A DNA stretch of 64,000 nucleotides, from the NCBI GenBank assembly GCA_030426765.1, contig JAUHXV010000004.1:36001-100000 (forward strand), read 5' to 3'. Under the pieces are notes generated by a model. It searched no databases. It was not told the DNA's origin and worked only from the letters and a program-made list of their open reading frames with translations. The stretch comes from Bacteroidia bacterium (GTDB lineage: Bacteria > Bacteroidota > Bacteroidia > Chitinophagales > Saprospiraceae). The position numbers and the translations under genes are program-made. Below, piece by piece: positions 35,331-43,944 of the stretch; position 1 is the stretch's first letter, and every line of letters starts with the position of its first letter.

Positions 35331-35364
35331 AAAAAAAGGCGAACCCACTTTTGGATTCGCCTTT
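35331..35364 (-). terminator. Terminator of the papain-like gene
   Basis: AAAGGCGAA (35335-35343) pairs with TTCGCCTTT (35356-35364). On the minus strand it is followed by a T-run. It lies 20 bp after the stop of the gene ending at 35385. Confidence 0.85.
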
Positions 35365-35384: not shown

Positions 35385-36992
35385 TTATTTCTTTCTGAAT
35401 TTTGACAGGCTTTCCTTGAGAGAGCCATCTTTTTTGCGCTGGATCAGCATCTGCTGGATTTCGTCTTTTGTATACGCATTGCGCAGGTCTTTGTTTTTCT
35501 CCGCGGGGGACATATGTGCCTGTGTCATGCCGGAAGGTTTTGTGCTCACCACTCTCACCTCAGCCTCGTCACCGGTAAACTGCGGAATACCATTTTGGAA
35601 ATAGATCGGATATCCATATGGATCAGTGATGTAGTAGTAGTTGTTGTTCTTGTCTTTGTCGCCAAGTACATCAAAGACATCCGCGATCATCACCAGGTAA
35701 TAGTAGCCGGTAATATTCGGTACTTCATAGGCCCAGTCAAAATTGTCTTGTGATCCAGTAACTGCAAGTGAGATGCTCGATCCACCCGGCACGTCTACGT
35801 GATTCCACCAGTTGCCACTCAGGCCGGGACCACTTTGCAATTCTGCATTCTGTCCGGGGCTGCCATAGTCATTGGAATAGTAGTCATAGAGCAGGAAGCC
35901 ATAGTCATTGGCATCAAAGGCATTGTAAAACACATAGCCAATAGCCCAGTCAGAAGAGGCACGTGCAGCTTCCGTACCGATGTTGTAAACGTTGTAACTC
36001 AGTGATCGTTCGCGGGGTGAGACACCGATCTGGCTGTCCCACAGTCCCCATGGTATCAGGTCCACGTTTCCAGAGGATGTAGGATCCGTTGGATCGTTCG
36101 GGTCGATATCGCCTTTTTTGTTAGTCGCAACATAAGCTACATTCGCAAAGTCAGGAGAAACAAAGAAGTTATAATCGATCCAGATAAAGCCCTGGTCACC
36201 CCAGAATGGACTCCATGAATTGACTACCCTGAAAGCGCCATTTGGCCCTTTATTGTCGTCATATCCGACAATGGTCATCGCATGTCCGGCGTGCTGTCCG
36301 ACGCGGTCAAAAGAAGTGTGTCCGTTCAATACCTGATCGGAATCCCAGGTCATAAAGTTGTCACCGAGACGTGCACCAAAACCAACCGGACGGTCATTGG
36401 CGATTTGTTCTTTGATGGCATTGATACTCAGATCAACAGAACGGTAGTTTTCGATTTTAAAATTCCCGGCTTCGCTGGTCCAGGAACTCTGTGTGCCTTG
36501 TGAACAGTCCTGAATATCGGTATATGGTGCTGTATTCATTTTAGCAACCCCTCTGTTTTGCATCACATCGAGAGCAGAGTATAGGTAGGTACCGCCGCAA
36601 TCGGGGCCGCGTTCGTTGGAAGGAATGGAGAGAAACAGGTCTTTCGGACTGAATTGGTTGCTTGCCTGACTGAGTTGGGAACTGGTCAGGTTGAGGTCCT
36701 GTGCTTCAATCATGGTTTTCAGATTGTAGCCGAGTGCCCAGGCTACGCAGGTGCCGTATTGACCCTGGTCGCCGACCGGAGGGAGATACTGAGTGATATC
36801 ATGTTTGGCAGGAACTGATCCTGTACCAAAATAGATGCCGGTTGGAATATTGTCATTGGTTTCATTGTCAAATGCACCCAGGCCGTATTCCAGGTCTGTT
36901 GGCTGGTCCGGCGTCACCGGATCATCCTTGTCGCAGGAGGACAAAAGTGCCAGAAGCAGAAAGGCAAGGAGGAGTGTTGCGTTCGTTTTCAT
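35385..36992 (-). CDS. Papain-like (C1) cysteine protease lipoprotein
   Basis: This 535-residue protein has a lipoprotein signal (LLSSC, Cys20) followed by an acidic linker. The C1 peptidase domain spans ~60-295: catalytic Cys82 in GQYGTCVAWA, His237 in GHAMTIVGYDD, Asn258 in VVNSWSPFWGDQGF, and the oxyanion Gln in GDQGQ. Residues ~310-480 form a beta-rich, Tyr/Asn/Gly-rich region possibly used in binding, and the end is highly charged. It is preceded by the shared 27-bp element at 37034-37060 and has its own terminator, so it is a single-gene unit in the sigma/CHAT locus. The substrate is unknown. Confidence 0.9.
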   Translation of the reverse strand: MKTNATLLLAFLLLALLSSCDKDDPVTPDQPTDLEYGLGAFDNETNDNIPTGIYFGTGSVPAKHDITQYLPPVGDQGQYGTCVAWALGYNLKTMIEAQDLNLTSSQLSQASNQFSPKDLFLSIPSNERGPDCGGTYLYSALDVMQNRGVAKMNTAPYTDIQDCSQGTQSSWTSEAGNFKIENYRSVDLSINAIKEQIANDRPVGFGARLGDNFMTWDSDQVLNGHTSFDRVGQHAGHAMTIVGYDDNKGPNGAFRVVNSWSPFWGDQGFIWIDYNFFVSPDFANVAYVATNKKGDIDPNDPTDPTSSGNVDLIPWGLWDSQIGVSPRERSLSYNVYNIGTEAARASSDWAIGYVFYNAFDANDYGFLLYDYYSNDYGSPGQNAELQSGPGLSGNWWNHVDVPGGSSISLAVTGSQDNFDWAYEVPNITGYYYLVMIADVFDVLGDKDKNNNYYYITDPYGYPIYFQNGIPQFTGDEAEVRVVSTKPSGMTQAHMSPAEKNKDLRNAYTKDEIQQMLIQRKKDGSLKESLSKFRKK

Positions 36993-37033
36993 AATTGGTT
37001 TGTATTGGTTTTAAAATTGGATTACGTTCATTT

Positions 37034-37060
37034 ATCGCAGCAGGAGGCAAAAGGTCATCA
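37034..37060 (-). promoter_or_regulatory. Shared 27-bp element, copy B
   Basis: TGATGACCTTTTG-N8-TGCGAT on the minus strand, 41 nt upstream of the ATG at 36992. It is identical in layout to copies at 37985-38011 and 43918-43944. The two-block form with fixed spacing resembles an ECF-type -35/-10 promoter. Confidence 0.75.
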
Positions 37061-37065
37061 TCGGA

Positions 37066-37097
37066 CAAAAAAAATGTCCGAAATACTTTTCGGACAT
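37066..37097 (-). terminator. Terminator of the pentapeptide-like lipoprotein gene
   Basis: ATGTCCGAAA-tact-TTTCGGACAT is a perfect 10-bp stem (37074-37097) followed on the minus strand by eight T. It separates this gene from the next promoter (37034-37060). Confidence 0.92.
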
Positions 37098-37124
37098 CAC
37101 TTGATTTGGGGTTCCTGCCGGTAT

Positions 37125-37967
37125 TTACAGGGTCTCTGTGAGGATAAAACTCCCCTCCAGATTGGGCGTTATTTTGTTGTCAGTACTGCTTATATGTCGT
37201 TTTCCCATAAAAAATGACCCGGAGAAGTCCACCAGTTCGAATCCCGTGAGACTGCGAACGAAGCACCGGCTGTAGAATCTGCTATTCCCCCCCAGGACTT
37301 TCTTGCCCCCTTTGGCATAGTCCATCATAAAGTCTTCGTGAAAGTGCGCATTGGAGAGATCTGCTGATCCCTGAAGCTCAAGATTGCTCAACTGGGTTTT
37401 TCCCTGCACTGAGATGCCCTGAAGCAGGAGGTGGTTGCCGATATTGTTGCCAAACAGGGACAGGTCTTCATGAAATTTGCTGTATTGGAGCAACAGGTCC
37501 TGGCCGAAAGCACATTCATCAATACGACACATCAGGAAAAAAGAGTTGCGTTGGAGGTCAAGGGATTTCGCAAATGTAGTTTTGCCTGCCTGGAAAATAG
37601 CATGGAAGATGGCATCATTGATCAAGACCTCTTCTTCAAAATGACAATTTTCAAAAATGACGGCTTTGGTAAAATGCAACTTTCTGTTTTCCTGCCGGGC
37701 CCAGCTTATTTTTCCGTCAAACCGGCAGTTGGTAAAGCGGAGTTCACTTTCCACATATACAGACATATTACCTGCATCCTCAAAAAGTTGATTGAAGTCC
37801 AGATCCATGTGGAAGGTTTCCCCGTCTGCTGTATAGTTTTGCCCGCTCTTGATTGCCGAAAGCAGCGCTTCTTCCGGGGAAGTGGGGTTTTTAATCACTG
37901 CGCTGCAGGCGATGATCACGATCGTCAGGACGGCACACAATGAGAGCAGGACATGCCTTGTTTTCAT
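37125..37967 (-). CDS. Lipoprotein with pentapeptide-like repeats
   Basis: This 280-residue protein has a lipoprotein signal (IIACS) and then, from ~70 to ~265, repeats with a hydrophobic residue or Phe every five positions (LRFTNCRFDGKISW, VIFENCHFEEEVLI, ADLSNAHFHEDFM, FELVDFSGSFFMG). This is the pattern of a right-handed quadrilateral beta-helix. The exact A(D/N)LXX consensus is loose. No catalytic motif is seen; a structural or binding role is likely. The ATG at 37967 is chosen over one 24 nt upstream because it gives a normal signal peptide. It has a shared 27-bp element 17 nt upstream and a strong terminator. Confidence 0.75.
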   Translation of the reverse strand: MKTRHVLLSLCAVLTIVIIACSAVIKNPTSPEEALLSAIKSGQNYTADGETFHMDLDFNQLFEDAGNMSVYVESELRFTNCRFDGKISWARQENRKLHFTKAVIFENCHFEEEVLINDAIFHAIFQAGKTTFAKSLDLQRNSFFLMCRIDECAFGQDLLLQYSKFHEDLSLFGNNIGNHLLLQGISVQGKTQLSNLELQGSADLSNAHFHEDFMMDYAKGGKKVLGGNSRFYSRCFVRSLTGFELVDFSGSFFMGKRHISSTDNKITPNLEGSFILTETL

Positions 37968-37984
37968 AGCGATTTTTCTCTTTA

Positions 37985-38011
37985 ATCGCAATGAAGGTCA
38001 AAAGGTCATCA
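37985..38011 (-). promoter_or_regulatory. Shared 27-bp element, copy A
   Basis: TGATGACCTTTTG-N8-TGCGAT on the minus strand, 17 nt upstream of the ATG at 37967 and 27 bp after the stop of the CHAT gene. Same layout as copies at 37034 and 43918. Confidence 0.75.
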
Positions 38012-38038
38012 GGTAGGATGGAATTTTTTTTGTAAAAA

Positions 38039-41000
38039 TTAGGTTCTTCCTTTTTTTCTTAGGACCTGCCAGGTCATAGCGGCCAGAAACAATATACCCA
38101 GACCCATCAGGATAAGGGCAATGGGTGTCTTTTTCTTAAAGCGTACGTCCCCATCATTGCCCATCAGGACCATGCCGGACCAGAAGTATGGATGCTGATA
38201 CGTCTCGTCAGCAGTAGAAAGGAATGTTAGCTTGGCATTGCGGAGGGCTTCACTCTTCGTTTGCCCGGCAGCGAGATTCTCAAAAAATAAATCAGTGATT
38301 CGGGTATTGGTTTTTTCATCCACCTTCCAAAGCGACATGATCGTGCTGGGACAGCCTGCGAAATTCAAACTATAGGCCAGCGAGATCATGCCTTCTCCGT
38401 CCTGAAGCTGGCCGATACCACTTTCACAGGCATTTAAGACAGCCAGATCTGCATTGAGCGAGAGGCCGTACATCTCATACGCATGCAGGTAGCCATCTTC
38501 GTTTTGTTCGCCGATTTCTTTGGCCAGCACCAGCCGGGAGCGCAGAGGATCTTTAGGATTGGTGATGGCATGTGTGCCGAAGTACAGGACATTTCCTTTG
38601 TGGAGATTGGATTTGATGTTGGATTCGGTGGCGGCCATTCCGGTAAAGGCATTGTTGCGATAGGCCCTCTTGAGTTTGTTCGCCAGCTTAACAGACCAGG
38701 GTTGCCTGACCGTATGGAGAAAATCATCGTCTACAAACTCCAGGGAATCCAAAGCGGTTTTGTACCTGTTTTTAATATCGTCTTCAAACCCGGGAGCAAT
38801 GGCAATCGCCAGTCCGGTTTTGCTATTTTTTTCTTTTTCCCTGGCCATCAGCAGGACCCGAACAGAGAGACCATAACTGATATTATATTGGTGAATGAGA
38901 TAATCTTTTGGCTTTCCTGTGGGTGAAAGCGTCTCAAAATTCAGGTAAAACAAAGAACCATTGGGAATGATTGTGATGCGGTCACCATTAAGTCCTTTGT
39001 GCAGGGGATGCCATAGAAAATAATAAAGTGCAGAAGTAGTTTGGTTTGTTTTGCGAATGTCTTGTTCGCTGATCGCTTGTCGCCACTTCATAACACTGGA
39101 ATCAATCAGTGCTTTATTGCCCAGATAAAAAAGATCAGTGATATCCTGGTTAATGAGAATGGCATAGTAGGCGGTATCATCGCGCATATACTCGATGATA
39201 TTTTCATCTTTAGCGAGTCCGGTTTTTACGTTCTCCAGAGGCACTGCACCTGAGATAAACTTAGTGTGGTAGTACTCAGCATTCGTGGTTTTAATTTTTT
39301 CTGTATGCTGGTACAGGGCTTCCTTGGCTTCGAAGAGTGCTTTTTTAATTGGAATGGAGTCCGGGTATTCAAGATATTGCTGATTGAGGGACGTGATCTC
39401 TTCTTGCAAACGGCGTTCTTCAGCGATCAAACTATCCGGTACTCCGGTAAAATGTTCAATCCGATTGTCCAGCATATCCGTCAATAGTGCAGCTCGTCCG
39501 TTTTCAGAAAAGGAATATGCCGATTCGAGGAACTGTGGATCACGTGTCTCTGAATAAAGCTGGTAGTAGTGGCCGATTTGATCGTTGTATATCCTGACAC
39601 TATTGCGCATCAGTGCACTCTTGGTATAGGGATCGTTAAACTGCCTTCTGAACTTGTTGGTGTGCTCCAGATATATGGAAGCATATCGCTTATACGCTTC
39701 GAGTGTACGCGTATCGCCAGTGCGTTGATATTTGTCAAACAGATATCCGGCATAGCTGCCGATGATCCAGAAAGCATTGGCAGAGTATTCAAATTCGTCA
39801 TCTTTTTGAATGATGGCGAGTGACCTTGTAAACAATTGCTCGGCGCTGTTGTAATCATTCAAATAAACATCAATGAGGGCTTCCAGTGCGAGGTTTTGTG
39901 CGTAGTCGCTGTTGGTGCTGGCCCCAATTCGTTCATATACTTTGCAGGATTCTTTAATAAAAGATTTTGCTTTTTTATAATTGGAAGTCATGTAATGAAT
40001 ATTCGCCAGTGAGAAGTAGTGTATCCCAAGCGAGTAGTCATCTTCGGCCAGCGTCTTCAGCAGGATATCACTTGCCTTTTGAATATAGACCAGTGCTGAA
40101 TCGGGTTGATCTGCATTTAAATAGGCAGTGGCCATATTTTCATTGAGCAATCCTTCCTCTATGCTTTCCGGTCCGAAATTGGCAATCAGTATCTTCCTGG
40201 ACTTTTCGTTAAAATAGATGTTTTGATCGTAATCACCTGATTGCTGCAAGGCTATGCCGAGAACCTGATAGGGCCAGATGAGCCTAGCGTGCAGTGGATG
40301 GAGAATTCTTTCCCGTATCTCAATGCACGCCTCCATGTAGTCTTTGGCGCGCCCATAGTCTCCGAGATAATAATGGTTAACGCCCAGCGAATAGTAGTTG
40401 GACGCTATGCCATCCTCATGTTTAAGTGCACGGTTTATTTTTAAGGCTTGTTCGTTGTATTTGATAGCTTGCGGATAATTCTGCAGGTCACTTTCCAAAG
40501 CTGCCAGATTGCCGAGTGTGTAGGATAGGTCACTGGAGACGGGGCCCAATTTTGATTCAGCAATGTTTTTTGCTTTCAGATAGAGTTGCCTTGCTTTGTC
40601 AAAATGATTAGCGCGGTAATAACAAACTGCAATACTGTTCAGGATAGTACCGAAACGAACTTCTGTCGTGTCAGATTCATTCAGAAAAAGATCATATGCC
40701 AATTGAGCATACTGGAGGCTGGAATCGTACATGGACATGCGTTCATACGTCAATGCCGTATACAGGAGAGCATCCGCCTTGAGAAGTTTGGCGTCTTCCA
40801 GCAAGTCGGTTTTAGCGATGGTTTGCTTGTGGAGTGCAAGTGCTTCAGGGAATCTGGAAGCCTTTTTGAAGTATTCGGCCTTCATGGTTTCATACTTACC
40901 GATGGCTTTGCTATACGGCAGTCCGGCGATGCGTTGATCCCCCAGAGCGATTAAAGAGTCGGCTTTTAAAAAATCGTTGTTAAAAATGCAGATTTTAATT

Positions 41001-41230
41001 TTCCCCGCAAGCCCTTGAAGTTGGTTATCAATATTTTTATCCTGGTAAACCAGATTATAGTAGTACTCTGAAGAATCGAGCTGATCATGGTTGTAGTAGT
41101 AACCTGCTTTTGCAATGAGACTGTCAACTGACACCTGTGCAGTTGCTTTCTGAGGAAGCACAACACACATGGCAATGACGCATGCAAGGAGTCGGTGTAG
41201 TTGGAGGTTTTTCAAGAGCAATGAATTCAA
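38039..41230 (-). CDS. Exported TPR-CHAT (caspase-like) protein with C-terminal membrane anchor
   Basis: This 1063-residue protein has an N-terminal signal peptide (LLACVIAMCVVLPQKATAQ), about ten TPR-like helix pairs (~45-560), a linker (~560-740), and a CHAT caspase-fold domain (~760-1025). The catalytic His is in YFGTHAIT (~886) and the Cys in LNACESGIGQ (~935). MSLWKVDEKTNTRI and HPYFWSGMVLMG are also typical of CHAT. A membrane segment (IALILMGLGILFLAAMTW) then ends the protein. Topology suggests a periplasmic protease anchored in the inner membrane. It starts from a TTG (41230 or 41221), 18 bp after the membrane TPR gene; no ATG gives a proper signal peptide. Third gene of the sigma operon. 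Confidence 0.9.
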   Translation of the reverse strand: MNSLLLKNLQLHRLLACVIAMCVVLPQKATAQVSVDSLIAKAGYYYNHDQLDSSEYYYNLVYQDKNIDNQLQGLAGKIKICIFNNDFLKADSLIALGDQRIAGLPYSKAIGKYETMKAEYFKKASRFPEALALHKQTIAKTDLLEDAKLLKADALLYTALTYERMSMYDSSLQYAQLAYDLFLNESDTTEVRFGTILNSIAVCYYRANHFDKARQLYLKAKNIAESKLGPVSSDLSYTLGNLAALESDLQNYPQAIKYNEQALKINRALKHEDGIASNYYSLGVNHYYLGDYGRAKDYMEACIEIRERILHPLHARLIWPYQVLGIALQQSGDYDQNIYFNEKSRKILIANFGPESIEEGLLNENMATAYLNADQPDSALVYIQKASDILLKTLAEDDYSLGIHYFSLANIHYMTSNYKKAKSFIKESCKVYERIGASTNSDYAQNLALEALIDVYLNDYNSAEQLFTRSLAIIQKDDEFEYSANAFWIIGSYAGYLFDKYQRTGDTRTLEAYKRYASIYLEHTNKFRRQFNDPYTKSALMRNSVRIYNDQIGHYYQLYSETRDPQFLESAYSFSENGRAALLTDMLDNRIEHFTGVPDSLIAEERRLQEEITSLNQQYLEYPDSIPIKKALFEAKEALYQHTEKIKTTNAEYYHTKFISGAVPLENVKTGLAKDENIIEYMRDDTAYYAILINQDITDLFYLGNKALIDSSVMKWRQAISEQDIRKTNQTTSALYYFLWHPLHKGLNGDRITIIPNGSLFYLNFETLSPTGKPKDYLIHQYNISYGLSVRVLLMAREKEKNSKTGLAIAIAPGFEDDIKNRYKTALDSLEFVDDDFLHTVRQPWSVKLANKLKRAYRNNAFTGMAATESNIKSNLHKGNVLYFGTHAITNPKDPLRSRLVLAKEIGEQNEDGYLHAYEMYGLSLNADLAVLNACESGIGQLQDGEGMISLAYSLNFAGCPSTIMSLWKVDEKTNTRITDLFFENLAAGQTKSEALRNAKLTFLSTADETYQHPYFWSGMVLMGNDGDVRFKKKTPIALILMGLGILFLAAMTWQVLRKKGRT

Positions 41231-41248
41231 ATCTTCACGTATGGAAGG

Positions 41249-42013
41249 TTATTCCCGATTTAGTTTACCCAGCAATTCTTTCGCCTTGCCGTGGAACGAA
41301 TGATCAGTCTGGTTCACAATGGAGTTTAAATGACTTTTAGCGCCGGGTACATCGTCAGATTTTAAAGCGCACATGACTAAGAGCCATTCTGCTTTCTCTG
41401 TAAACTTCGATGATGGGGTATCTAATACGTTCTGTAGTTGGCGTTGTGCCGACTCCGGTTGATCTTCATAGAGCAGACTAGCCCCCAGATAAAAAGAAAT
41501 CGTATCGGTGTCCGCACCTTCTGCTTGCATAGCGGACAGTTTTTCTATGGATACCTTATAGTTTTCTTCTCCGAAATAGGAAAGTGCATCGTAGAGTGCG
41601 TAGTTGTCGGATTGACTCATCACTACGGGTAGTCCCGGATCCACATATTCGTAGGCAGCAAATTGATTGTCGTAGTTATTTTCTCCAAAAAAGACCAGGT
41701 AGCCGGCCAGAACGATCAGTGCGCTTGCTGCAATACCGATGATCCATTTTGGAGGTTTCATGGAGATGACACGACCAGTTTGTTTCGCGGTGCTAACCTC
41801 ATCAGCACGAGACATGATCTGTTGGATTTGATCGCGCACACCTTGGGCTTCAACGGCGATGCCTGCACGTCTGACCCACGCTATCTTTTCTTCAAGGTCT
41901 TCCAGATTGTGCGTCTGAGCATACGCTGACAATTCATCGAAGGTGATCTCACCCTGTATGTACTCGTCTATTTTTTGTATGTCTTCAACGTTCATCGTCC
42001 GTTCGGTTTTCAT
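41249..42013 (-). CDS. Single-pass membrane protein with periplasmic TPR-like domain; candidate anti-sigma factor
   Basis: This 254-residue protein has a cytoplasmic N-terminal part (~1-88; helical, with IDEYIQGEITFDELSAYA), one membrane segment (~90-109, WIIGIAASALIVLAGYLVFF), and a periplasmic TPR-like region (~140-250). Its start overlaps the end of the sigma factor gene by 29 bp, the usual arrangement for a cognate anti-sigma. The N-terminal part does not show a clear ZAS/RskA motif, so the anti-sigma role is inferred from topology and context only. The TPR part could meet the TPR region of the CHAT protein. Confidence 0.75.
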   Translation of the reverse strand: MKTERTMNVEDIQKIDEYIQGEITFDELSAYAQTHNLEDLEEKIAWVRRAGIAVEAQGVRDQIQQIMSRADEVSTAKQTGRVISMKPPKWIIGIAASALIVLAGYLVFFGENNYDNQFAAYEYVDPGLPVVMSQSDNYALYDALSYFGEENYKVSIEKLSAMQAEGADTDTISFYLGASLLYEDQPESAQRQLQNVLDTPSSKFTEKAEWLLVMCALKSDDVPGAKSHLNSIVNQTDHSFHGKAKELLGKLNRE

Positions 42014-42536
42014 AGTATGATCGCAAACTTTGCATGCACCGGTATTTGTTGTTTTTAGCTGTTTTTTCGGTGATGTTCATGCTCAGGGCGATATCTTTTA
42101 ATGATGACTTTTCGTAATAAAACTGTTTCAGTAATTGTTGACATGCTTCATTGAGCTTCAACAGTTGTTTCTCTAATGTGCGGATCAAGGTGTATTGTTC
42201 TTCCTGGTCATCCACATCCATCAGGTCGCTGTGTTCGTCTTTGATTTCAATGGTCATTCCGGGCTTAACTTTTCTCAGCCGGCTGATCCAAATGTTTCTG
42301 CAAAGGGAGTAGAGGTATGTGGATAGTCTCGTGTTTTCTTTTAGCTCGAATTTCCCCTGGGTAATATTGGTCCACATGGCAACCAGGCCTTCCTGAAATA
42401 TATCCATGGCATCATCTTCGCTTCCACTGTTCTTTTGTACCATGGAGAGGATCATGCGCCTGTATTCATTGTACAAATAGGTAAAGGCTGCATTGTCTTT
42501 CCGGAGGATTCCTGCGTATATTTCCTGGTCAGTCAA
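41985..42536 (-). CDS. ECF-like RNA polymerase sigma-70 factor
   Basis: This 183-residue protein has sigma region 2 (~15-85: AFTYLYNEYRRMILSMVQ, DAMDIFQEGLVAMW, TRLSTYLYSLCRNIWISRLRK) and region 4 (~125-175: LNEACQQLLKQFYYEKSSLKDIALSMNITEKTAKNNKYRCMQSLRSYY), without regions 1 and 3, as in ECF factors. The start appears to be the TTG at 42536; the first ATG would delete part of region 2. It overlaps the next gene by 29 bp. No copy of the shared 27-bp element lies upstream, so the operon itself is not obviously autoregulated by it. Confidence 0.9.
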   Translation of the reverse strand: MTDQEIYAGILRKDNAAFTYLYNEYRRMILSMVQKNSGSEDDAMDIFQEGLVAMWTNITQGKFELKENTRLSTYLYSLCRNIWISRLRKVKPGMTIEIKDEHSDLMDVDDQEEQYTLIRTLEKQLLKLNEACQQLLKQFYYEKSSLKDIALSMNITEKTAKNNKYRCMQSLRSYYENRTDDER

Positions 42537-42646
42537 GGTTTGTATATAAGATTCAGATTTGAAAAGAAATCTGTCTAATATAGAAATTATGAAATGAAGT
42601 GACTGGTTTTTTTCCTGCTTTCAGGAAGGTGGTTTACGCTTTGTCA

Positions 42647-42681
42647 AATAAAATTTTGCCCTGTGTATCTGCAGGGCAAAA
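42647..42681 (-). terminator. Terminator of the 389-residue secreted protein gene
   Basis: TTTTGCCCTG (42654-42663) pairs with CAGGGCAAAA (42672-42681), with a T-rich stretch following on the minus strand. It isolates this gene from the sigma operon downstream. Confidence 0.88.
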
Positions 42682-42698
42682 CTTTTAATGGGGTGTTT

Positions 42699-43868
42699 TT
42701 AGTTGCCTCTTCGTTTGACTTCAGTCCAGGTCCCGTTCAGATTGATATCCTGAGCTGGTTGATAAAACTGATCATTTGTTCCGAAGTACTCACCTTGTCC
42801 GTTCATAAAGTAGCGATCGTATCCGGATTCCACTTTATAGCTTTGGTCGGAAGCCGGATCGTACACATTTTCCCATTCGTGGATTCCGTTGACCGTCATG
42901 TCCTGCATTCTGTCTGAGGAGGCATTGGCATTTCTCCAGGTATCCATACTCATATCGCTGATCTCATTGTTGGTTCTCCAGGTTTGCATACTGGCATCGA
43001 GGGCGGCATTACTGGAGGCGGTAAAGCTTCGTTGCTGTGCATCGAATGCCGCCTGGTTGTTACGCATGCGGGTGTTGTGAGAAGCCCAGCTTTGTTGTTC
43101 TTTCATAGCTTCATTTCGGTTGTATTCGGCGATTTGTTGGGGGTTGCTTTGAGCATTAGCGATCCCATAGATATACGCATCCCTGGATGCTTTGTATGCT
43201 GAGGGCTGGCAGTGTAATGTATGGGTGAGGTATCCCCAGTTACCGCCGTACCCGTAGCTGAAAGCCATTTGTCTTACGATTAGAAAGCTTGGATTGCCAT
43301 TTGCATCTACGATATCCACGCCAAGGGCATCGAAAGATTTTTGCATGTTCTGAGAGCCGTACAGTTGGTTGGAGTAATTCGCGTCATACTGCATGATACC
43401 CGGAATAGGAAATGTGTTGGTGATCTTTCCTCCTTCGTTCTGAATGGATTGAGCCAATTCGTAACGCAGGATCTGCTGCGCAGACATTGGTTGTCTTTGG
43501 GAACTATCATACATACGCATTGGGGTTTCTCTGGCGATCAATCCACCTGGTCCTTTGATGGCTCCGTTGGAAATTTCCCAGTTGGCCGGCAGAGGCATAT
43601 AGCCCAAGACTTTGCCGGTTTGCGGGCTCACGATTTTTTTCATTTCGATGGGCTCGTTTCCTTCGGTGGGTCTGCTGGTTTTTACTGTTTTCATGGGTTG
43701 TTGGTTTACCTGAGTGGCTGTGTACTCAGCGGGTGAATTTGTATAGTCCTGAGGATTCTGTTCTTCCCAGGCTTCTGCCATGTACACATCGTTTTTGGGT
43801 TGTGCGAGAAGTAGTATGCCGATCAGTGCGGCCATGGCTGTCAGGATGATTTTAGCATTCGGTTTCAT
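42699..43868 (-). CDS. Secreted Asn/Gln/Met-rich protein of unknown function
   Basis: This 389-residue protein has an N-terminal signal/anchor (ILTAMAALIGILLLAQ). I do not recognise a family. Residues ~85-230 look globular (QTGKVLGYMPLPANWEISNG, FSYGYGGNWGYLTHTLHC). Residues ~235-330 are helical, rich in Asn, Gln, Ala, Met and Ser, with repeats of (S/N)A..D(A/S)..(Q/D)TWR(T/N)(N/A)N. The last ~60 residues (WENVYDPASDQSYKVESGYDRYFMNGQGEYFG) resemble a domain often ending secreted lysozyme-like or hypothetical proteins. It carries the shared 27-bp element 49 nt upstream and its own terminator, placing it in the same putative regulon as the papain-like and pentapeptide-like lipoproteins. Confidence 0.75.
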   Translation of the reverse strand: MKPNAKIILTAMAALIGILLLAQPKNDVYMAEAWEEQNPQDYTNSPAEYTATQVNQQPMKTVKTSRPTEGNEPIEMKKIVSPQTGKVLGYMPLPANWEISNGAIKGPGGLIARETPMRMYDSSQRQPMSAQQILRYELAQSIQNEGGKITNTFPIPGIMQYDANYSNQLYGSQNMQKSFDALGVDIVDANGNPSFLIVRQMAFSYGYGGNWGYLTHTLHCQPSAYKASRDAYIYGIANAQSNPQQIAEYNRNEAMKEQQSWASHNTRMRNNQAAFDAQQRSFTASSNAALDASMQTWRTNNEISDMSMDTWRNANASSDRMQDMTVNGIHEWENVYDPASDQSYKVESGYDRYFMNGQGEYFGTNDQFYQPAQDINLNGTWTEVKRRGN

Positions 43869-43917
43869 TTTTTGAAGTTTAGATGGTTAGCTGTTGAATT
43901 CTGTTGTTTGCCCATAT

Positions 43918-43944
43918 ATCGCAGCGGGCAACACAAGGTCATCA
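43918..43944 (-). promoter_or_regulatory. Shared 27-bp element, copy C
   Basis: TGATGACCTTGTG-N8-TGCGAT on the minus strand, 49 nt upstream of the ATG at 43868. It differs from copies A and B by one base in the first block; spacing is the same. Confidence 0.75.

Follow-up and report, generated by a model that had tools for sequence, protein, structure and literature searches.

Sigma factor switches of the RpoE/RseA and SigW/RsiW types have a GGAACTT-like −35 box. These switches share several features with a locus that we describe here from a Bacteroidia bacterium of the family Saprospiraceae, found within a stretch of 64,000 nucleotides (assembly GCA_030426765.1, contig JAUHXV010000004.1, positions 36,001 to 100,000 of the forward strand; hereafter the window). 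In each case an extracytoplasmic function (ECF) sigma factor adjoins a predicted single-pass anti-sigma factor with a cytoplasmic N-terminus, the targets are likely to belong to the envelope and proteolysis is the proposed switch. In the window, an operon for an ECF sigma factor (SIG), a predicted anti-sigma factor (ANTI) and a caspase-like TPR-CHAT protease (CHAT) lies among the genes for an exported protein (SEC), a pentapeptide-repeat lipoprotein (PENT) and a papain-family lipoprotein (PAP), each of which is preceded by a 27-bp promoter-like element (Table 1). Relative to the RpoE/RseA and SigW/RsiW types, the window system differs in its putative −35 (TGATGAC) and −10 (CGATA) boxes; its sensor part is of the TPR type, its operon includes a CHAT protease and about four promoters were found in its genome.

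A TPR-CHAT protease also meets an ECF factor in type III-E CRISPR systems. There, Csx29, a TPR-CHAT protease, is reported to cleave Csx30, which inhibits the ECF factor CASP-sigma, and three strong matches to the CASP-sigma motif lie in promoters of the type III-E locus (PMC10028731). Craspase (Cas7-11, Csx29, Csx30 and CASP-sigma), as described there, and the window locus both encode a TPR-CHAT protein, an ECF inhibitor and an ECF sigma factor together. In the window, by contrast, a signal-peptide-like start or a membrane helix is present in both CHAT and the inhibitor, giving a predicted envelope topology, and ANTI is a membrane TPR protein that may be unrelated to Csx30. A PADLOC scan of six window proteins returned no CRISPR model and one weak TPR match. 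CalpL, CalpT and CalpS form a further triad of protease, anti-sigma factor and ECF sigma factor, in which CalpL is reported to be a Lon-type protease activated by cyclic tetra-adenylate (PMC11417357), whereas the protease of the window is of the CHAT type and has a predicted signal peptide. Within Bacteroidota, SM6 of Flavobacterium psychrophilum is likewise an ECF-type promoter set that includes an anti-sigma/ECF pair, but the SM6 promoters differ in having a CGT −10 box and in serving type IX secretion system genes; in the portion of that article available, no TGATGAC −35 was seen and the word CHAT is absent from the main text (PMC9723704).

An ECF sigma factor, a membrane anti-sigma factor and a CHAT protease are known kinds of parts. 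Our literature search, which covered the ECF classification literature incompletely, did not find this promoter sequence, a lipoprotein regulon of this kind or an envelope TPR-CHAT protein in such a locus. To our knowledge, few ECF promoters have been defined in Bacteroidota.

The element in the window and its genome

We propose that the element is most probably a promoter, with a −35 box of TGATGACCTTTT and a −10 box of CGATA, that is read by SIG and serves a private regulon of exported proteins. Three exact copies of TGATGACCTTGTG-N8-TGCGAT, all on the minus strand and with no mismatch, were confirmed where the preliminary description had placed them. That description put them 17–49 nt before an ATG; measured from the end of CGAT, the distances are 41 nt for PAP, 17 nt for PENT and 49 nt for SEC. 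It had noticed no further full copy in the window, and none was found there even with up to three mismatches allowed. When the window was shuffled, a mean of 0.06 copies of TGATGACCTTKTG-N8-TGCGAT was expected, and none of 100 shuffles got to three. The flanks of the three copies are 28–45% identical; the copies are therefore not the product of recent duplication.

The whole assembly (3,975,697 bases in 147 contigs, 95% complete) contains the full 27-bp pattern exactly only at the three window sites, all within 7 kb, with three additional places at three mismatches and none in the reversed control. A looser search (TGATGA[C/T], 14–16 letters, C[G/T]ATA) gave 22 places against three in the control, comprising two of the window copies, 19 places that lack the remainder of the −35, and a single new full site. 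This site, TGATGACCTTTTTGAATTGCTGCGATA, lies on another contig (G000:C123:2323-2349), has a spacer one base shorter and stands 46 nt upstream of the gene for a 239-residue hexapeptide-repeat protein. With both spacers allowed, four sites are counted in the organism's own genome, and the predicted regulon would therefore hold four promoters or more, of which three lie within 7 kb. The rarity of the element is upheld, and the hundreds of copies irrespective of gene starts that would have spoken against a regulon were not seen genome-wide. The spacing, held to be fixed in the preliminary description, is not: the assignment of the two blocks to −35 and −10 stands in a refined form, TGATGAC(C/A)TTTT and CGATA, with spacing that varies by one base.

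Conservation of the element in relatives

SEC homologues occur in 21 of 298 family genomes, including the organism's own. We fetched 33 regions around SEC homologues and earlier pattern matches, and SEC-SIG-ANTI-CHAT synteny is found in seven of them (L066-L070, L072 and L080, with CHAT cut by the contig end in L067 and L068). By manual count, the element precedes 18 of the 27 SEC homologues in regions L065-L088, two of which (L068 and L082) are truncated at contig ends; it is also present upstream of Flavobacteriaceae SEC homologues. The window and the 33 regions (587,478 bases) together hold 29 matches, three of them in the window, and the reversed control holds none. Among PENT homologues the element lies upstream in L136 and L151, with none seen in L083, while the PAP homologue in L083 has an element variant 83 nt upstream. 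In L136 and L151 PAP follows immediately after PENT, which suggests a single operon for the two at these loci.

Selection by target gene was avoided in a second set of 58 loci, which were fetched by scanning named genomes with the ANTI alignment A2. The records are titled Saprospiraceae, Flavobacteriaceae (Maribacter, Arenibacter, Flagellimonas and others), Parapedobacter, Terrimonas and others; ten loci, judged by length and coordinates, repeat earlier contigs (L099, L100, L102, L103, L104, L106, L107, L136, L142 and L152), and L131 and L148 overlap. Across these 1,022,436 bases, TGATGAC[ACT]-N14/15-C[GT]AT[AT] gave 101 matches in 48 of the 58 loci, eight of them inside called open reading frames (ORFs). 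The reversed pattern gave 0 and ten shuffles gave 0, 0, 0, 1, 1, 0, 1, 0, 0 and 1. The eighth −35 base is A, not C, in most Flavobacteriaceae matches. The TGATGAC and CGAT blocks are 15–16 nt apart at near-constant spacing, which is the layout of an ECF promoter, and a mildly A/T-richer stretch lies upstream of the element.

With the window included, 95 of 104 sites have an ORF of at least 90 residues within 120 nt, at a median distance to the start of 30 nt (middle half 21–39 nt). A crude rule classes 63 of the 95 products as lipoprotein-like and assigns a signal-peptide or membrane-like start to another 21; among 584 background ORFs, the same rule gives 117 and 211. In all, 84 of the 104 sites lie upstream of genes with lipoprotein- or export-like starts.

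The element is clustered around the module. In 20 genomes hand-picked from the 58 loci, with a stricter pattern and contigs matched by coordinates, 39 of 52 matches fell within the ANTI locus range, which reaches at most 10 kb to either side, and the other 13 lay outside it, against four matches in the reversed control; the three genomes without a strict match (those of L116, L119 and L142) carry variants. A search of 398 family genomes gave 41 strict elements, spread over 17 genomes, against four in the control. We scored ANTI in these genomes by profile A2 and called a homologue close at E 1e-40 or better, a cut-off chosen after the list had been inspected. Of the 24 genomes with a close ANTI, 15 have the strict element, compared with 2 of the remaining 374 (Fisher p 2.9e-19). 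Leaving out the 11 genomes that contribute rows to A2 changes the counts to 7 of 13 and 2 of 374 (p 2.5e-10). The two exceptions that have the element and no close ANTI are 74% (G039) and 70% (G377) complete, and G377 has SEC-like genes, by eye, downstream of two elements. Weaker ANTI-like proteins are found in 380 of the 398 genomes; the element therefore tracks the close homologue and not the wider family.

Association of the element with SIG

Six of 55 SIG genes (L109, L110, L118, L136, L142 and L144) have the element in the 300 nt ahead of them, and it is also upstream of SIG in L191. Six loci carry mostly a variant −10 box, CTAT, and their SIG proteins share one side of a branch. On the SIG tree (48 labelled rows, with L117 labelled from a match inside SIG) this variant requires one change, with support 93, and 0 of 500 shuffles was as low. 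Five of the six CTAT sigma factors carry C[K/R][Y/F][K/R]W, where Y/F corresponds to window residue 81; the L142 sigma factor is similar (CKFKW), and most CGAT sigma factors have asparagine at this position.

The relation between CTAT and the SIG clade is an association, and the reading of the element by SIG is likely, not proven. The private sigma regulon suggested in the preliminary description gains comparative support from the strong enrichment beside sigma/anti-sigma/CHAT loci of several families, the co-occurrence across genomes, the copies before SIG and the −10 variant. Since the element recurs beside the same sigma, anti-sigma and caspase-like genes in many Bacteroidota, a small envelope response under SIG is likely.

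ANTI, CHAT and the proposed switch

The model of ANTI (predicted local distance difference test score 88.3) has an N-terminal helical domain, with helices at 9–19, 25–34 and 40–76, a membrane helix at about 91–109 and a C-terminal TPR domain, which filled the fold-search lists. Flanking charges indicate an N-in/C-out topology in 44 of 49 homologues, and the NCBIfam anti-sigma model NF052375 matches 29 of the 49 (E up to 0.05, best 2.9e-08).

CHAT comprises a signal-peptide-like start, TPR repeats, a CHAT domain with His887 and Cys935, and a C-terminal membrane helix. Both residues are kept in all 55 complete CHAT rows, 50 of them distinct. By a simple threshold, a hydrophobic segment is present at the N-terminus in 53 and at the C-terminus in 51 of these rows, and the four that miss the C-terminal segment show a weaker one by eye. 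The CHAT gene directly follows SIG-ANTI on the same strand in 46 of the 58 loci and has the opposite orientation in L151, L153 and L155. The preliminary description counted a caspase-like protease among the members of an envelope response unit; the gene is present, but no element precedes it in the window. It sits in the SIG operon, and CHAT more resembles a component of the switch than a regulon target.

In three loci with the CTAT element (L109, L118 and L136), no CHAT gene was called next to SIG-ANTI, and CHAT therefore cannot be required everywhere. Nearby genes in these loci include FHA-trypsin and PP2C genes (L109) and PENT-PAP (L136). In L109:2998-7899, of the CTAT type, the element also stands before the genes for FHA-trypsin proteins and a PP2C-like phosphatase, so SIG-ANTI may have swapped its partner system there. 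A similar-looking gene lies behind an element at L118:15834.

We infer the steps beyond promoter assignment as follows. The membrane TPR protein ANTI would keep SIG inactive until an envelope signal causes the TPR-CHAT protein, which is predicted to face the periplasm, to cut the periplasmic TPR part of ANTI. Further proteolysis would then release SIG, free SIG would transcribe the genes for exported proteins, and the products of the regulon would act in the envelope.

Further sites and features of the locus

Other elements were observed before a variety of genes in relatives. In Flagellimonas oceanensis, the gene for a lipoprotein with a serine beta-lactamase fold (PF00144) lies behind the element (L113:3967-5190). 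Three genomes (L195, L205 and L206) have a CTAT-type element 76–86 nt before the genes of 236–243-residue exported proteins that resemble outer-membrane barrels by eye. L181 (G058) and L192 (G191), which lie on different contigs from the SIG locus, have an element, CGAT in one and CTAT in the other, 111–114 nt before similar membrane proteins of 134–138 residues. Also in G058, a GH10 protein that bears a type IX secretion tail (L094:2168-4336) has an element 55 nt upstream of its start.

The features of the window locus are collected in Table 1. SIG, at 183 residues, consists of regions 2 and 4 alone, which fits the ECF (group IV) architecture (TIGR02937 8.3e-24) and agrees with the ECF-like operon first described inside this block. 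ANTI overlaps SIG by 29 nt as called. The SEC protein looks exported and its N-terminus, read by eye, has no lipobox cysteine. A terminator of its own had been assigned to each of the three exported-protein genes: this is clear for PAP and PENT, while the hairpin behind SEC is listed by the scanner on the plus strand only and its T-rich tail on the minus strand was read by eye. The PENT terminator, together with another hairpin that overlaps it, extends as far as the PAP element (37061-37098).

Table 1 Features of the sigma factor locus in the window
Feature	Position	Strand	Evidence
Promoter-like element before SEC gene	43918..43944	-	exact match
SEC, 389-residue exported protein	42699..43868	-	model: Mog1/PsbP/DcrB-like fold over residues about 71-242, followed by long helices
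Likely terminator (hairpin, T-rich tail) between SEC and SIG	42654..42681	-	scanner and eye
SIG, ECF sigma factor, regions 2 and 4, TTG start	41985..42536	-	PF04542, PF04545, TIGR02937
ANTI, predicted anti-sigma factor, one membrane helix, TPR domain	41249..42013	-	profile, topology, model
CHAT, TPR repeats and CHAT caspase-like domain	38039..41230	-	PF12770 4.9e-53 plus TPR
Promoter-like element before PENT gene, 17 nt from ATG	37985..38011	-	exact match
PENT, pentapeptide-repeat lipoprotein, ATG start	37125..37967	-	PF13576 2.3e-06; lipobox by reading
Intrinsic terminator after PENT, stem end 12 bp before PAP element	37073..37098	-	terminator scan
Promoter-like element before PAP gene, 41 nt from ATG	37034..37060	-	exact match
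PAP, papain-family (C1) lipoprotein	35385..36992	-	PF00112 2.8e-17; lipobox by reading
Intrinsic terminator after PAP	35335..35364	-	terminator scan

Discussion

Several observations weigh against a promoter read by SIG. Ten of the 58 ANTI loci have no match, of which L102 is cut by a contig end and L116, L119 and L144 have CGATG variants, and the sole match in L117 lies inside SIG. The strict element is missing from 9 of the 24 close-ANTI genomes, and PAP homologues in L091, L136 and L151 have no element directly upstream. Within 300 nt, 49 of the 55 SIG genes lack the element; the window SIG is among these, so the autoregulation that is common, though not general, among ECF factors is not seen there. 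A hairpin separates SEC from SIG in the window, and any coupling of the two would therefore need read-through. The four NCBIfam matches of the window ANTI include no anti-sigma model. The residue pattern in SIG has exceptions, since the CGAT loci L114 and L146 carry Tyr and L133 His, while L144, with a CCGATG element, carries Tyr. Finally, the −10 association is no proof of contact, because sigma clade and species history are confounded.

Could the element instead be an operator bound by some other activator or repressor? By eye, an inverted TGTCATCA, or a sequence one letter off, lies 7–12 nt upstream of the SEC element in some Flavobacteriaceae loci (L112, L115, L121, L122, L125, L130 and L150; also L124), in the manner of an operator palindrome. 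In L121, L122, L125 and L150, however, the inverted copy is a full match with CGATA 14 nt after TGATGACN, and L124 has an inverted full match before another lipoprotein gene; in these five loci the inverted copy therefore appears to be a divergent promoter. No full inverted match was found in L112, L115 and L130, nor at the SEC site of L124. The block spacing, the distance to the start and the mildly A/T-richer upstream stretch fit a promoter, and SIG-ANTI is the only regulator seen in common among the loci, though other regulators were not searched for. We consider an operator unlikely. It is more improbable still that the element is the promoter of a different ECF sigma factor, with the SIG operon nearby by chance or as a co-target. 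ECF promoters often cross-talk, and most family genomes encode several ANTI-like proteins, both of which would suit such a reading. It is opposed by the concentration of genomic sites in the 20-kb range around ANTI (39 of 52), the element before SIG itself in several relatives and the −10 variant that tracks the SIG clade.

The promoter assignment is much firmer than the CHAT step. SIG may read the element while CHAT acts as an effector or sensor elsewhere and ordinary site-1/site-2 proteases remove the anti-sigma factor, to which we give nearly an even chance. The loci with CHAT missing or on the other strand fit this arrangement, as does the reported cutting of RseA and RsiW by other proteases (PMC10028731). 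The position of CHAT directly behind SIG-ANTI in most loci, its invariant His-Cys dyad and its predicted membrane and periplasmic topology argue the other way, and Craspase is a precedent for a TPR-CHAT protease that cuts an ECF inhibitor (PMC10028731). It is possible that CHAT cleaves ANTI and so activates SIG, although we would put this somewhat short of even. Tentatively, then, an envelope-anchored TPR-CHAT protease would cut a membrane anti-sigma factor and fire a lipoprotein regulon, as a CRISPR-independent, periplasmic counterpart of the Craspase/CASP-sigma system, one distributed across Bacteroidota and perhaps ancestral to that system.

The proposed promoter code, together with a sigma factor and a list of targets, is directly testable in Bacteroidota, since the locus is carried by named strains, such as Membranihabitans maritimus, Maribacter halichondriae and Flagellimonas. 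The locus places a caspase-like protease in a likely envelope sigma switch outside CRISPR. If this is true, TPR-CHAT proteases would be tied to ordinary stress signalling, which would give them a testable cellular role.

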